Made by a program: the position numbers and the translations under genes | NCBI GenBank assembly: GCA_000153145.1 | Contig: CH672415.1 | Span: 1,013,208 to 1,077,207 of the forward strand | Direction of reading: 5' to 3' | Length of the DNA stretch: 64,000 nucleotides | Source of the DNA: a marine actinobacterium PHSC20C1 | Lineage (GTDB): Bacteria > Actinomycetota > Actinomycetes > Actinomycetales > Microbacteriaceae | Notes under the pieces: model-generated | Told to the model about the DNA's origin: nothing | What the model saw: the letters and a program-made list of their open reading frames with translations, nothing else | Databases searched by the model: none | Part shown: piece by piece, positions 39,105 to 47,861 of the stretch | Position numbering within the stretch: position 1 is the first letter of the stretch | Layout: the number at the start of each line of letters is the position of its first letter

Positions 39105-40028
39105 CTAGTAGAGCAACAGCGTTAGTCGACGACGCGCGTCAGCCACTCTCGGATCCTCGGCGCCGGCAATCTCGAAGTACTCGAGCAACCGCGTGCGAAT
39201 CGTATTCTTGCCATCAGTATCGGCGGACGGGTAAAGGTCGAGAAGACGACCGAATGCATCGCCCAAATGACCGCCGGAAACATCGAGGTCGGCGACGGCT
39301 AGTTGTGCATCCACATCGTCGGGGCTATGCCCTGCAGCGCTTCGCAGCGCCTCAGTGGTGGTGTTCTCCAACCGCGCAAGCAGCGACACTTGAGCGAGAC
39401 CCGCAACAGCTTGCTGATCACGAGGATTCTGCGCGATGGCCGACTCATATTTGGTGATGGCGGTAGCAAAATCTCCAGCGACTACCGCGTCGTACGCTTC
39501 TTGATGGAGCGGAGGAAGGGGCTCTTCGACAGGTTCCTGAGCATCATCCTCGGATGATTCGCCTGCCGGCAGAGTTCCGGTCACGTTGTTTTGTGCAGCA
39601 AGCTGCAGCACCTGCTCCAGAACATCCTTCAGCTCGGCCTCCGGCAGCGTTCCGGTGAACAACTGCACTGGCCGGCCACCCACAACGGCAGCGACGGTCG
39701 GAACCTGCTGAACTTGGAACGCCTGAACGAGCTGCGGATTGCTGGTGGCGTCAACAGTAACGAGTGCGAAACGACCTGCGTAGGCAGAGATCGTCGGCTC
39801 AAGCGTTGGCTCAACGCCCTGCCCGAAAAACTCAACGATGACAGGAACATTGTTGGAAAGTTCGAGCACTTGAGTGAACGAAGCATCATCGGCGTTCGTT
39901 GCGAATCCGCCAGTTTCTTGAGCCTCTCCTTTGCCTGGCGCCGTCGGCGGGGCGTTGTGCTGACGAACCAATGATGAGAGGTCGACGGCACCGCGCAAGC
40001 TAGCGGCGTTCAGTGGGGCGTTTGTCAA
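39105..40028 (-). CDS. Thioredoxin-like/TPR co-chaperone (YbbN/CnoX type) lacking CXXC
   Basis: A 307-residue protein with an N-terminal thioredoxin fold (about 55-155) and a C-terminal tetratricopeptide region (about 170-300), as in E. coli CnoX/YbbN, a redox-regulated holdase delivering proteins to GroEL and DnaK. The usual WCGPC site is replaced by FGQGVEPT, so no CXXC disulfide chemistry is possible; FQVQQVPTVAAVVGG keeps the cis-proline. Tandem helices RDQQAVAGLAQVSLLARLEN and HSPDDVDAQLAVADLDVSGGH look TPR-like. TTG is the start, overlapping the upstream 574-residue gene as TTGA behind ggag, so it is translationally coupled to that gene. Confidence 0.9.
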   Translation of the reverse strand: MTNAPLNAASLRGAVDLSSLVRQHNAPPTAPGKGEAQETGGFATNADDASFTQVLELSNNVPVIVEFFGQGVEPTLEPTISAYAGRFALVTVDATSNPQLVQAFQVQQVPTVAAVVGGRPVQLFTGTLPEAELKDVLEQVLQLAAQNNVTGTLPAGESSEDDAQEPVEEPLPPLHQEAYDAVVAGDFATAITKYESAIAQNPRDQQAVAGLAQVSLLARLENTTTEALRSAAGHSPDDVDAQLAVADLDVSGGHLGDAFGRLLDLYPSADTDGKNTIRTRLLEYFEIAGAEDPRVADARRRLTLLLY

Positions 40029-41749
40029 TTCAACTCCGATGCTGCAACAAGTCCTTGGGTGTACCCGAGCAGGACGATTTTCTCACCGCTACCTGCGGCC
40101 GGGACATAAAAGAGTAGCTGATCTCCGTAGGTGGATTTGATGCCGGTTTCAGTAATCGAGATACCGGAAAGGGCTTTCGTCTGACCACTAAAGGTCACTG
40201 CCGAGCCTGCTTCTTTCGGCTTCGCAATCTTAGTTTCGTAAAGATGAACCGCAACGATAGCGCCAGCGTCAACAGTTGCCATCGCGATCGGTTCGGCTGA
40301 TCCGAGTTCGTGACCGTACGTGAGCGTCGCGGTACTCGACAGCTCAGACTGCTCCTTCTTCTTGACTGCGAGTCCAACGTTGACTCGCAGGCTGTCCCCC
40401 TCGGCTTCGAAGTCCAAGTACGAGTCGCTATCGACATCCTGCTCAAGAATTTCGGCATAATCGAGCGCGACCTCGGTCGGCGACGACCTTAACAGGCCGC
40501 TATCTGAAGCCAATCGAGAGGTACCAACACTCGCTGCAACCACATCAGGAAATACGACTGACGGCTCAAGGTTTACCGCGTAGCTCACCTTGAAGTTGTC
40601 GCGAGGGTTCGCCTGCTCGAGGAACAGCGCGATAGGGGCGACTGTACTGTCGGTCTCATCGAGGATGATCGTGAATACTGTGCGCGGCCAGGAATCAGTC
40701 TGCTGAGGCAACGTCAACTGAACTGGTCCGTCAGGGATCGCGACAGGTGCATCAATTGAGCTATCTGCCTTGCGCATTTTGTAATTGGCTAGGCGATACT
40801 CCAGAGCCGCATCAGTAAAGCGCGTGTTAATGAGGTCGGTGTCTCGAGACTCGTCCGCTTCGAGAGCAGCAGCGCTGACTCTGGCGACTATCTTCTCTAC
40901 CTGCCGAACGGATACCGCCGGTGAGAGCGCTTCGCCGCCATCGGAAGTCGACGTTGGCGTAGGAACTGGGGCGCCTGCGTCATTGGCCGAATTAGGCGAT
41001 GTTGTCGCAGTACAGCCGGTAAGTACTAGAGCACTCACCAACACAGCGGGTACCGCAATGCGGGTAGTGGTGTTAAGGGTACGCTTCGACGGTTTGTAGC
41101 GCGGCTTCTTGGGAACCTTAGGCATTTTCTGTGGCTTCCGACGGGGTCCACCGGCGCGACGCATGTGGTGCACGGCCCACATGAGGAAAATCAGACCGAG
41201 AAGAAGAATTGCAGCGCCGCCCACGATCAGCGGTCCGGACCACGGAGTGGTGTTGTCGAGAGGCCACGACAGTGAAACTGTGCTCGGAGCGGCCTCGATA
41301 CCGTCTGCAGCCAGAATAAACGACACGTCGCTAGGGATCTTGACGGTAAGCGCAAGATTCAAGTCTGCCTCGTAGCTCTCTAGCCAGAGGTCAGAGTCGT
41401 AGGGGTCGGGCACTTCTGCCTCGCTACCGCGAACGCTTTCGGTGACCAACTCGCCAGTTTCCGGATCGAGCGTGATCTTGTTGTACCAGGCATCGCCTAC
41501 CCAAGCGAGCACGTCTGGCGTTCGTCCATAGGCGGCGACGATGCGGCCGGGCCCTGAGACACTGATCGTTTGATTGCCCGAATACGCGTTAAATGCAGCA
41601 CCGTCGACGACTGTCAATGGTGCTGGCCCGTCGGTTTCTGCCGACACAGTGACCCCGTCGGGGGTCGCAAGAATGGTCTGCTGCGCAATGCCGTAGCCGA
41701 TCATTACGGCTGCGAGCATGAAACTAACTATGGCGAGAACGAATCTCAC
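40025..41749 (-). CDS. Two-part membrane protein with internal lipobox, unknown function
   Basis: A 574-residue protein that reads like two genes joined. Residues 1-23 form a signal-anchor, 24-168 an extracytoplasmic beta domain, 173-194 a second helix, and 197-230 a very basic cytoplasmic loop. Residues 231-246 form a hydrophobic run ending in a perfect lipobox LTGC (Cys246). Residues 250-574 are an extracellular, beta-rich domain with a Ser/Thr/Pro linker. An internal ATG (41125, Met209) has ggaag nine bases upstream and would give a canonical lipoprotein of 366 residues. Start GTG 41749 has aaaggag. Whether the product is one three-helix protein or is cleaved by signal peptidase II at Cys246 is open. 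It is coupled to the thioredoxin/TPR gene. Confidence 0.8.
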   Translation of the reverse strand: MRFVLAIVSFMLAAVMIGYGIAQQTILATPDGVTVSAETDGPAPLTVVDGAAFNAYSGNQTISVSGPGRIVAAYGRTPDVLAWVGDAWYNKITLDPETGELVTESVRGSEAEVPDPYDSDLWLESYEADLNLALTVKIPSDVSFILAADGIEAAPSTVSLSWPLDNTTPWSGPLIVGGAAILLLGLIFLMWAVHHMRRAGGPRRKPQKMPKVPKKPRYKPSKRTLNTTTRIAVPAVLVSALVLTGCTATTSPNSANDAGAPVPTPTSTSDGGEALSPAVSVRQVEKIVARVSAAALEADESRDTDLINTRFTDAALEYRLANYKMRKADSSIDAPVAIPDGPVQLTLPQQTDSWPRTVFTIILDETDSTVAPIALFLEQANPRDNFKVSYAVNLEPSVVFPDVVAASVGTSRLASDSGLLRSSPTEVALDYAEILEQDVDSDSYLDFEAEGDSLRVNVGLAVKKKEQSELSSTATLTYGHELGSAEPIAMATVDAGAIVAVHLYETKIAKPKEAGSAVTFSGQTKALSGISITETGIKSTYGDQLLFYVPAAGSGEKIVLLGYTQGLVAASELN

Positions 41750-41996: not shown

Positions 41997-42031
41997 CTAG
42001 AAGTCCTTTCCGCTGACCTCGAGGAGACGTC

Positions 42032-44371
42032 TTGGCCGCCAACGATACTGATTTCGGCACCGAAATGCGCGGCTATAAGAAGGACGACGTTGACAAGCTC
42101 ATCGGTGAACTCCGTCGGGAGTTAGTCGCGGCGAAGGCCGACCGCACCTCATCCACAAAAGAGGTCAAGCGGCTACTGGCCGTGAACGAAGACCTTCAGG
42201 CTGAGCTCGACGAGACGGGAAGTCCCACTTACAGCGGACTCGGCTCCAAGCTCGAAAGCATGCTGCGGGTTGCTGAAGAGCACTCAACGCAACTCATCAG
42301 CCAGGCCGACATCGACGCTGAGAAGATGCGCAGGGCCGTTCAATCAGAAACGACCGCTCTGCGTGACGACGCCACGAGCGAATCCGAGCGCATCCTTGCT
42401 GATGCGAATCGCGAAGCAGCCGCCCTTTCCCAAACATCACGCTCTGAAGCAGACTCCCTCATTGCCCGTGCTCGCGACGAAGCGGCACAGCTAACCGCCG
42501 ATGCTGCACGCGAAGCCGCAACAATTCGGGGAGCAGTAGCTACCGAAGCTGCGGATGTTCGCACGTCAGCTAAGCGTGAGGCCGCAGCTCTCCGCGCCGA
42601 AACCGAGCGCGCCATGACTGAACTCCGCGCCACAACCGCTACTGATGTCGCCGAAGCGCGCGAAGCTGCAGAAGCACTTGCCCGCGACGCCGAGCTAGGC
42701 CGCGCTACCTTCGAGGCGGAGAACACAAAACAACGAGAAGATCTTGACCGTGACATTGAGCAGGCTCGAACCGATATCGCTCGGGAAATAGAAACTGCCC
42801 GCGCAGAACTTGAAGCTGAATCCACGACAGCCCGCGAGAGTCTCGCAAACGAGACCAAGGCGGCACACACCAAGCTCGCAAACGAGACCAAGGCGGCACA
42901 CACCAAGCTCGCAAACGAGACGGCGGCAGCACAGGCCAAACAAAAGGCTGAGCTGGATGCTGCCTACGCCGCACTAGAGGCAGAGACACAAGCTACACGG
43001 GCCGCAACGGAGTCCGAGGCTGCACGAATTCGCAGTGAGCTCGAAGCAGAAGTGCTCACTACGCGTGCCGAACTTGCGGCAGAGCTCACCGAAACCCGCG
43101 AGCTTTGGGAAGTCGAAGAACGGGACGCTCGCGCACAACTCGCAGCGGATGACACCTCAACTCGCGCGGCCCTCGAAGACGAAGTCAGCACGACCCGCGC
43201 GGCCGTTGAACATGAAGTAACAAGCACCAAAGCAGCGCTAGAACAAGAAGTAACGACAACCAAGACGGCGCTCGAACAAGAAGTGAAAGTTACCAAGGCT
43301 GCTCTTGAACAAGAAGTAACAACCACTCGTTCGAACCTTGAACAAGAGGTTGCTACCGCCACAGCCGCGCTCAACGACGAAGTTACGACCACTCGCGCTG
43401 AGCTAGAAGCGCATGTCAAGGTGACGCGAAGTGAACTGGCCGCAGACGTTGCGGCACAGAAGAAAGCTCTCGACCGCGAAGTCGCATCCACCAAAAAGGC
43501 ACTCGCGAAGGAAGTCTCTTCAACCCGCACCGCACTCGAAAACGATGTTGAATCAACGCGTGCCGGCCTCGAAGAGGAGATCGCTAACGCGCGAAGCGAG
43601 TTCGACAAGGAAAGCTCGACCGCCCGCGCTGACTTCGAAGCCGAGATGACGAACCGGCGCAACGAGCTCGAAGCAGAAATCGCTACAGGTACAGCCAACC
43701 TTGAGGACGAGATGGCGCGTCGTCACGCCGAACTCGATGCGGAAATCGATAGCAAGCGCACCGCCCTTCACACCGAAGAGACCGAAACCCGTGCAGCTCT
43801 CGCACACGATGTGCAGAAACAAACCGCTGACCTCGAAAGAGACATTGCACGCCAACGCGCAGAACTCGCCAACGAAGTTGAGTCGACTCGGGCATCCAAC
43901 CAGCACCGTTTGGATGAAGCGCGCACGACTGTCGAGCATGAGGCTGAAGCGGCGCGCATCGCGCTAGATCAAGAACTCGCCGCACGTCGCGACGAAGCCG
44001 AAAAGGAATTCTTGGCCCAGCACAAAGAAGCCTCGACTCAAAGCCAGAACTACCTCGAAGAGGCACAGGCCCAATTGGCTGAGGCAGTGCGCGAAGCAAA
44101 TGCTAAGCGCCACGAAGCCGAAGAGCTCAGCGAAACATCACAGGCTGAAGCAAAGTCGATCCTGGCAGATGCGTCAACGCGTGCGGCCGACCAGTTGGCC
44201 GACGCGGAGTCACGCGCCAAGTCGATGGTCGACGACGCGGAGAAGCGTTCCGCTGAACTTGTGAGCGACGCCGAAGAGCGCCTGGCAAAGATCAAGGTGG
44301 AACGCGAGACTGTTGCCGGGTACTTCGAAAACCTGCGCGGAGTTCTGAACCAAGCCGAGGATGTTGGCTAG
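42032..44371 (+). CDS. Giant hendecad coiled-coil protein, DivIVA-like N terminus (Scy/FilP-like cytoskeletal candidate)
   Basis: A 779-residue almost entirely coiled-coil protein, Ala-, Glu-, Thr- and Arg-rich, with no Cys and no membrane segment. Residues 9-32 (GTEMRGYKKDDVDKLIGELR) resemble the membrane-targeting DivIVA N terminus (Gly-Tyr, then Val-Asp). A heptad-like segment runs to about 230. From Arg235 to about residue 652 there are 38 consecutive 11-residue units without a gap, with consensus Arg/Lys-x-x-Leu-x-x-Glu-Val-x-Thr-Thr. Two of the units, LANETKAAHTK, are identical in protein and DNA. The end (about 700-779) is a shorter coil (DAEERLAKIKVERETVAGYF). A TTG start lies five bases after gaggag. 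Relatives in role may be Streptomyces Scy and FilP, which organise the growing pole; no sequence search was done. It precedes the AI-2E-type permease gene. Confidence 0.88.
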   Translation: MAANDTDFGTEMRGYKKDDVDKLIGELRRELVAAKADRTSSTKEVKRLLAVNEDLQAELDETGSPTYSGLGSKLESMLRVAEEHSTQLISQADIDAEKMRRAVQSETTALRDDATSESERILADANREAAALSQTSRSEADSLIARARDEAAQLTADAAREAATIRGAVATEAADVRTSAKREAAALRAETERAMTELRATTATDVAEAREAAEALARDAELGRATFEAENTKQREDLDRDIEQARTDIAREIETARAELEAESTTARESLANETKAAHTKLANETKAAHTKLANETAAAQAKQKAELDAAYAALEAETQATRAATESEAARIRSELEAEVLTTRAELAAELTETRELWEVEERDARAQLAADDTSTRAALEDEVSTTRAAVEHEVTSTKAALEQEVTTTKTALEQEVKVTKAALEQEVTTTRSNLEQEVATATAALNDEVTTTRAELEAHVKVTRSELAADVAAQKKALDREVASTKKALAKEVSSTRTALENDVESTRAGLEEEIANARSEFDKESSTARADFEAEMTNRRNELEAEIATGTANLEDEMARRHAELDAEIDSKRTALHTEETETRAALAHDVQKQTADLERDIARQRAELANEVESTRASNQHRLDEARTTVEHEAEAARIALDQELAARRDEAEKEFLAQHKEASTQSQNYLEEAQAQLAEAVREANAKRHEAEELSETSQAEAKSILADASTRAADQLADAESRAKSMVDDAEKRSAELVSDAEERLAKIKVERETVAGYFENLRGVLNQAEDVG
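42842..42907 (+). repeat. Exact 33-base tandem duplication inside the coiled-coil gene
   Basis: Two identical 33-base units (42842-42874 and 42875-42907), each encoding 11 residues beginning LANETKAAHTK, lie head to tail, and a third degenerate unit follows. Because 33 bases equal one hendecad, the duplication keeps the coiled-coil phase exactly. Confidence 0.95.
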
Positions 44372-47309: not shown

Positions 47310-47861
47310 CTATCGAACGGCGAGCATGACATCAATCACAGAATCGAGAAGATAGTCGACTTGTGACTCGCGATAGCCGCCTTTGGTGCTGCGAAATGCG
47401 ACAGTTCGTACGCGCTCGATAGTGAGAGGAGCACCATGCTGGAAGTAACTAGCGAGTTCTTCGGCGAACGCATCAACGTCTTTGACCGCGTAGCCAATCG
47501 TGAATGCACTGACCCGCGAAAACTTCTTGCCGTTCAGCCGAGCGAGCCTGTTGAGGATCTCTTGCGCTTCGGAGCGCGCGTTAGCGTACCAAGCGGATTC
47601 ACCGAACTCGGCGACTGCCTGATCACGCTCGCGAGCAGCGAAGGCATCCTCGAGTCTTTCAAGTGCAGAGTCAACGTGCAGGGGTGAATAACCACCCTTT
47701 TGCATGGCGAAGGCGAGCTTGCGGATGGAACGCGACGTGACTACTGCCGCATCAGCGCGCTCCGACGTGTACGCCCGTCGCGCCTCCTCAAGGAAGTCCT
47801 CGACCTGGTCGACGTTGTAACCCTGCTTTGACTTGCGGTTACGGGGAAAAGTGGTGGTCAC
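47310..47861 (-). CDS. DivIVA-domain repeat protein
   Basis: A 183-residue protein made of four short DivIVA-type elements with a Gly-Tyr turn and a following hydrophobic helix. They are QGYNVDQVEDFLEEA (13-27), KGGYSPLHVDSALERLEDAF (55-75), IGYAVKDVDAFAEELASYF (122-140) and KGGYRESQVDYLLDSVIDVM (160-179). The Gly-Tyr positions are 14-15, 57-58, 123-124 and 162-163. A polar-membrane-targeting or division-linked role is likely by analogy with DivIVA, Wag31 and SepIVA-like proteins. It is the last gene after cdsA (a 14-base gap), an arrangement seen in Microbacteriaceae. Confidence 0.85.
   Translation of the reverse strand: MTTTFPRNRKSKQGYNVDQVEDFLEEARRAYTSERADAAVVTSRSIRKLAFAMQKGGYSPLHVDSALERLEDAFAARERDQAVAEFGESAWYANARSEAQEILNRLARLNGKKFSRVSAFTIGYAVKDVDAFAEELASYFQHGAPLTIERVRTVAFRSTKGGYRESQVDYLLDSVIDVMLAVR

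Follow-up and report, generated by a model that had tools for sequence, protein, structure and literature searches.

Rod length appears to change by whole hendecads in FilP orthologues of the Microbacteriaceae, including a 38-hendecad protein of a Salinibacterium

Background

A stretch of 64,000 nucleotides of DNA from a marine actinobacterium, the whole of which we refer to as the window, carries a gene whose product joins a DivIVA-like N terminus to a long array of 11-residue repeats, or hendecads. The initial annotation suggested that this protein would be a distinct type of polar scaffold. The locus raises two questions: whether the protein is of a new kind or belongs to a known family, and how the length of so regular a rod varies among relatives. 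FilP and Scy are described as having a DivIVA-like domain and, after it, hendecads, over a range from fewer than 200 to more than 1000 residues (PMC9858780), and FilP orthologues, simple ones included, are reported to be very widespread in actinobacteria (PMC4255298). Three members of the FilP family are reported to form filaments in vitro (PMC2680258), and FilP of S. coelicolor to form 37-nm rods and 60-nm striated filaments (PMC6599971). Word searches of the literature returned no experiment on any Microbacteriaceae FilP and, among listings and the openings of abstracts, no description of a quantised FilP rod length or of its variation.

Gene and protein layout

The frame at 42032-44371 (+) is uninterrupted over 779 aa by ORF analysis, and its start codon aligns with those of the orthologues. 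The five nearest named records are from Salinibacterium strains, with 87-91% identity over the first 133-134 residues. Antisense ORFs across the gene were discarded as shadows of the repeat. The features are as follows.

42032..44371 (+): filP of a Salinibacterium; 779 aa from a TTG codon, coordinates including the stop
42021..42026 (+): putative ribosome-binding site GAGGAG, recognised from sequence, five bases upstream of the TTG
42032..42217 (+): DivIVA-like domain, residues 1-62, with RGYKKDDVD at 13-21 and a helix at 17-62; from a family profile against GpsB/DivIVA and predicted helix
42218..42244 (+): conserved PTYSGLG linker at residues 63-71; invariant columns; N-terminal anchor for length measurement
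42245..42733 (+): N-terminal part of the rod, residues 72-234; hendecads with an alanine core, length nearly constant
42734..43987 (+): hendecad array, residues 235-652; 38 units of Arg-x-x-Leu-x-x-Glu-Val type; the length-variable part among relatives
42842..42921 (+): 33-bp tandem unit, 2.4 copies, 100% identical, from repeat analysis
43988..44299 (+): C-terminal part of the rod, residues 653-756, of mixed pattern
44300..44368 (+): cap ERETVAGYFENLR plus tail at the C terminus, residues 757-779; second anchor for length measurement

Structure prediction places helices from residue 67 to residue 778. The AlphaFold model of the whole chain is of low confidence (mean pLDDT 70.6, pTM 0.20); at that confidence it shows a single helix spanning 217-696, and the breaks in the model, near 213-216 and 697-702, lie not far from the borders between the rod segments.

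Hendecad periodicity of the rod

The initial annotation had divided residues 235-652 into 38 hendecads in a single phase, and this division is exact: cutting every 11 residues yields 38 units with no insertion or deletion. Identity autocorrelation over these residues peaks at lag 11 (z = 19.0), with further peaks at lag 22 (z = 17.3) and lag 33 (z = 14.8), and shows no signal at lag 7 (z = -2.1) or lag 51 (z = -0.9), the two periods against which a hendecad reading had been set. The Fourier peak of LIVMF lies at 3.67 residues. A hydrophobic residue at position 4 together with an acidic one at position 7 occurs in 34 of the 38 units, compared with at most eight in 2000 shuffles, and only one of 59 heptads has both a and d hydrophobic. 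The periodicity extends beyond the array, to residues 1-234 (lag 11, z = 4.7) and 653-779 (z = 6.8). At about residues 287-363 the pattern is weak, the 11/3 hydrophobic moment dropping to 0.02-0.35 (taken over 44 residues at a time), and the frame stays intact. An earlier estimate of about 60 nm for the rod holds for the array alone; at 0.148 nm per residue, the whole of the predicted helices (residues 67-778) would reach about 105 nm.

The N-terminal domain

That the N terminus resembles DivIVA was borne out, clearly so only when a family profile was used. The single protein scores below the curated cut-offs for both Pfam (17.7 bits, cut-off 28) and TIGR03544 (16.2 bits, cut-off 22), and a single-protein search against solved structures, run up to E 0.1, was negative. 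By contrast, a profile built from 18 N-termini of the family matches GpsB (E 5.7e-5), DivIVA 2WUJ (E 1.9e-4) and Wag31 6LFA (E 0.049). Residues 17-62 are predicted to be helical. The literal motif GY[DN]xx[QE]V[DN], as defined in PMC9858780, is lacking from the window FilP, which has GYKKDDVD; it is present in 10 of the 18 aligned family sequences, and the R, G, Y, V and D are invariant in all 18. We treat GYKKDDVD as a diverged motif within a family that otherwise meets the definition. Identity of the protein with DivIVA/Wag31 itself was rejected on the Pfam score and on a score of 16.4 bits against an NCBIfam Wag31 cut-off of 260. The same genome has a separate DivIVA at C1:458336, which at 50.4 bits lies over the Pfam cut-off.

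Assignment to FilP and gene order

A Streptomyces-type FilP (L147, a 311-aa protein adjoining a 1298-aa Scy) was used as query against the window's genome, and its sole match there was the gene studied here (E 4.3e-9), in a search that was not exhaustive; a DivIVA-family search of the genome missed the DivIVA-repeat gene at 47310-47861, which lies above the cut-off of the Pfam search. Nor did searching the genome for Scy give a match, an empty result of a kind that carries no weight. The family profile, as distinct from a single protein, finds FilP in eight of eight Streptomyces-type loci and ranks it above the neighbouring Scy in all of them except L148.

Gene order was compared across 80 orthologous Microbacteriaceae loci of 8-14 kb each (mostly 12; one of 7 kb). 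The neighbours of the window gene recur in most of these: a membrane gene in 80, a thioredoxin-TPR gene in 79, an AI-2E family gene in 76, a hydrolase in 73, SLT in 69, a DivIVA-repeat gene in 58 and cdsA in 53. Two genes further upstream in the window recur in only two loci each. Because the gene matches a Streptomyces FilP and its neighbours are conserved in the orthologous loci, we assign it, on this comparative evidence, as the FilP orthologue of a Salinibacterium (Microbacteriaceae). The kinship with FilP and Scy that the initial annotation had proposed is upheld, all three being of one superfamily. Its further claim of a distinct type of polar scaffold is not: by match, anchors and conserved gene order the protein is a FilP, of an architecture already published for FilP and Scy.

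Two of the neighbours merit mention in their own right. The gene divergent from filP at 40025-41749 (-) encodes 574 aa with membrane-like stretches, is the one found beside filP in 80 of 80 loci, and matches no Pfam family at E 0.001 or below; its product is a candidate partner of FilP. The gene at 47310-47861 (-), 3 kb from filP, encodes a DivIVA domain repeat protein (TIGR03543, 192.1 bits, cut-off 154.2) that is probably a PolyDIV in the sense of PMC9858780, and such a gene lies within reach of filP in 58 of the 80 relatives. No Scy gene neighbours filP within the 64,000 nt of the window.

Rod length modulo 11

A search with the N-terminal domain gave a match in 119 of 149 family genomes. 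These comprise a main set of 80 plus the window's own genome, a distant set of 33, and five that were left out (G011, G087, G143, G057 and G096). The 30 unmatched genomes, in which FilP may have been lost or have diverged, include both members of the genera g2, g3, g8, g11 and g16. Rod length was measured between the PTYSGLG linker and the C-terminal cap.

In the 81 orthologues of the main set the RGY-to-linker spacing is invariably 52 residues. The anchor distance ranges from 296 to 1011 residues and takes 47 distinct values. Modulo 11, these distances fall almost entirely into two classes: 53 are in class 10 and 26 in class 6, with one each in class 3 (L064) and class 5 (L107); classes 3, 10 and 6 are separated by successive steps of one heptad. 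When moduli from 3 to 29 were tried on the same 81 distances, no comparable excess was found beyond 11 and its multiple 22. A step of 22 residues was rejected, as both modulo-22 classes are occupied (by 18 and 13 of the 47 distinct lengths).

As shared ancestry had to be limited, lengths were also compared within genera. Among the 33 genera with at least two species, length differs in 20, and in 18 of these the species differ only by multiples of 11, ranging from 11 to 165; g7 (33, 40, 7) and g30 (5) do not conform. The C-tail, which lies outside the rod and serves as an internal control, differs in length in 12 genera; the difference is a multiple of 11 in just two of them, and in both it is the sum of other gaps in the alignments. 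The count of 38 units is a trait of the genus: the anchor distance is 692 in all seven distinct Salinibacterium-genus proteins measured (the window FilP, L035, L036, L207, L208, L210 and L211; L209 is the same record as L036), and other genera differ.

Three further sets extend the comparison. The best 80 of 342 named loci yielded, after removal of six that were unmeasurable and 15 already in the main set, 59 proteins with 23 distinct lengths, all of them in the two main classes (56 in class 10 and three, all Agromyces, in class 6). From 40 loci of distant Microbacteriaceae, with anchors placed by profile, we removed L174 and L201-L206 (without syntenic neighbours), L170 (contig end) and L184 (no cap found); 25 of the remaining 31 fall in the three heptad-related classes. 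The fit depends on length: 19 of 20 rods of at least 300 residues are on the lattice as compared with six of 11 shorter ones, five of the six off-lattice relatives having rods of fewer than 300 residues. Outside the family, 28 of 29 genomes are in class 3, at 201, 245, 289, 300 or 322 residues, and L160 is at 260; this set leaves out L164, the Scy proteins and seven of L125-L144, and counts three duplicate genomes once. Judged from these distances, the lattice spans the FilP proteins examined, being strict in long rods and loose in short ones. Rod length and genome size correlate with opposite signs in the main (rho = -0.29, n = 80) and distant (rho = +0.57, n = 31) sets, with no significant correlation when these are combined (0.13, P = 0.18).

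Some proteins fall outside these counts. The FilP-like proteins without syntenic neighbours have an anchor distance of 255 in all six measured (L174 and L201-L205), and form an apparent paralogue with a fixed rod length. In L234 (Homoserinibacter gongjuensis) the filP frame ends within the rod, before any cap, on a contig that continues; the early stop may reflect a frameshift, a sequencing error or a truncation. Among seven Scy proteins of Streptomyces-type loci (L146-L152), only four share one class modulo 11, and we do not extend the strict lattice to Scy; their anchor distances exceed the shortest (1158) by 11, 69, 88, 127 and 138 residues, which are not multiples of 51.

Position of the length changes and composition of the rod

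When close pairs are aligned, the middle of the rod carries single gaps of 11, 33, 44 or 132 residues. Of the 67 rod gaps in 24 aligned pairs, 42 are multiples of 11 and 25 are not, many of the latter having neighbours with which they sum to 11 or 22 (for example, 4 + 7). Numbered by the first protein of each pair, the gaps are mostly at residues 245 to 680, with some at 122-244 in two divergent pairs. These alignments place the length changes mostly in the hendecad array.

Composition, calculated over the 53 class-10 proteins, divides the rod into three parts: an alanine-core N-terminal segment, a Leu/Val-core array and a mixed C-terminal segment. In the N-terminal segment alanine makes up 70% and 68% of two core positions. 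The array has the consensus Arg 74%, Leu 68%, Glu 66% and Val/Leu/Ile 58%, and in it alanine makes up just 7% and 12% of the two positions buried deepest, and 34% of a flanking one. The Leu/Val core positions of the array lie almost on the axis, at about -13 and +20 degrees, where alanine would be expected in dimeric hendecads (PMC9858780).

Tandem copies of 33 bp are found at the DNA level in the window gene and in its relatives. Those at 42842..42921 suggest recent duplication or exchange between units. Two neighbouring units of the window gene are identical at 33 of 33 bases, and each differs at 3-9 bases from its counterpart in six congeners, which points to recent exchange between units; despite this, total length is constant in the seven Salinibacterium-genus proteins.

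Proposed mechanism and alternative explanations

We consider it likely that the protein is a FilP orthologue, a cytoskeletal protein of intermediate-filament-like kind, in which the rod gains and loses whole hendecads and selection keeps the helical phase. As the family and its Streptomyces members suggest, the DivIVA-like head would pair two chains and dock the molecule at DivIVA-organised poles or septa, and the long helix would be a stiff rod packing laterally into filaments or a mesh. The length of the array would set that of the rod. In the Microbacteriaceae, the array would gain or lose whole 33-bp units (11 residues), and occasionally a heptad, with recombination between units supplying the changes and selection purging those that break the continuous hydrophobic stripe, so that length varies and phase is kept. 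We infer selection for a continuous stripe because in-frame changes other than multiples of 11 are common in the tail and rare in the rod.

The main alternative also takes the protein to be a FilP, with the lattice merely the footprint of mutation: slippage or recombination in steps of 33 bp would let length drift, with no selection on phase or on length. This is what the 33-bp tandem copies, the two adjacent identical units and the variation in length among congeneric species in 20 of 33 genera would lead one to expect. It accounts poorly for the C-tail, in which changes are not multiples of 11 in 10 of 12 genera when such changes are nearly absent, net, from the much longer rod, and for the persistence of the lattice between families at fixed lengths (201, 245, 289, 300 and 322), with short repeats; we regard it as rather improbable. 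A digitally tuned spacer, in which the number of hendecads would set the spacing of the mesh or of the striations in a polar cytoskeleton, with the phase between the two ends kept, lengths selected lineage by lineage and a straight Leu/Val array in another oligomeric state from that of alanine-core FilP, is to us a similarly doubtful proposal.

Two other readings are far less probable than these. The array might be a lipid-binding 11/3 amphipathic helix lying on a membrane, as in apolipoproteins, instead of a coiled coil. The Pfam Apolipoprotein A1/A4/E match (E 4e-18) that would suggest this scores 66.2 bits against a curated cut-off of 90, and the array has a net charge of -39, unlike the usual lipid-binding 11-mer helices. 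On the score and the charge we judged such a helix to be very unlikely. The formation of filaments by FilP relatives (PMC2680258, PMC6599971) also argues against it. As for a polar scaffold that is neither FilP nor Scy, which we hold to be hardly credible, the 38-unit array lacks a 51-residue signal and has a Leu/Val core, as against the alanine-rich cores described for FilP and Scy (PMC9858780); yet the head, linker, cap and 11-residue lattice are those of FilP across the class, the protein matches FilP, and shorter rods at the same gene place make up a continuous family with it.

Implications

A DivIVA-like tip on a hendecad rod was already known; what appears to be new is the phase-keeping, hendecad-counted length of the rod in the Microbacteriaceae. 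If the lattice holds, natural FilP rods would range from about 45 nm (296 residues) to 150 nm (1011 residues), taking 0.148 nm per residue, and the main difference between them would be how often a single building block is repeated. Such a natural series makes it testable whether rod length sets the repeat of bacterial intermediate-filament-like polymers and whether it matters to the cell. The anchor distance modulo 11 also offers an easy check, from sequence, for a hendecad coiled coil that is continuous and constrained, and could be applied to other giant coiled-coil proteins that defeat ordinary alignment.

Comparison with known systems

The closest counterpart is FilP of Streptomyces (SCO5396 in S. 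coelicolor; AbpS in S. reticuli), which has in common with the window FilP a DivIVA-like head, hendecad periodicity, a P-S/T-Y-x-GLG linker at the same 52-residue spacing and a cap R-D/E-x-V/I...L..R at the end of the rod. The two differ in the rod between the anchors, which measures 201 residues in eight of eight Streptomyces-type loci and 692 in the window FilP, with its insertion of a long Leu/Val-core array. JNB03975 (Janibacter) and Mb1709 (M. bovis), compared here by description only, belong to the FilP family by their conserved N-terminal motifs, have differing rods, and are both reported to form filaments in vitro (PMC2680258). DivIVA/Wag31 and GpsB have the N-terminal domain in common with the window FilP and, unlike it, are short coiled coils.

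Scy has a repeat of 51 residues. Its autocorrelation shows side peaks at 18, 29 and 40, as such a repeat would give, whereas the window FilP has no signal at 51. Scy of Streptomyces, a long hendecad-based coiled coil of the same superfamily (about 1244-1449 aa in the loci examined), is said to consist almost wholly of hendecads, and its chain is described as beginning immediately before RGYD (PMC9858780), whereas the window FilP keeps twelve residues before RGY. Scy was rejected as the closest relative of the window FilP on the periodicity and on this difference in chain start. The contrast between the window FilP and Scy is one of regularity and not of kind.
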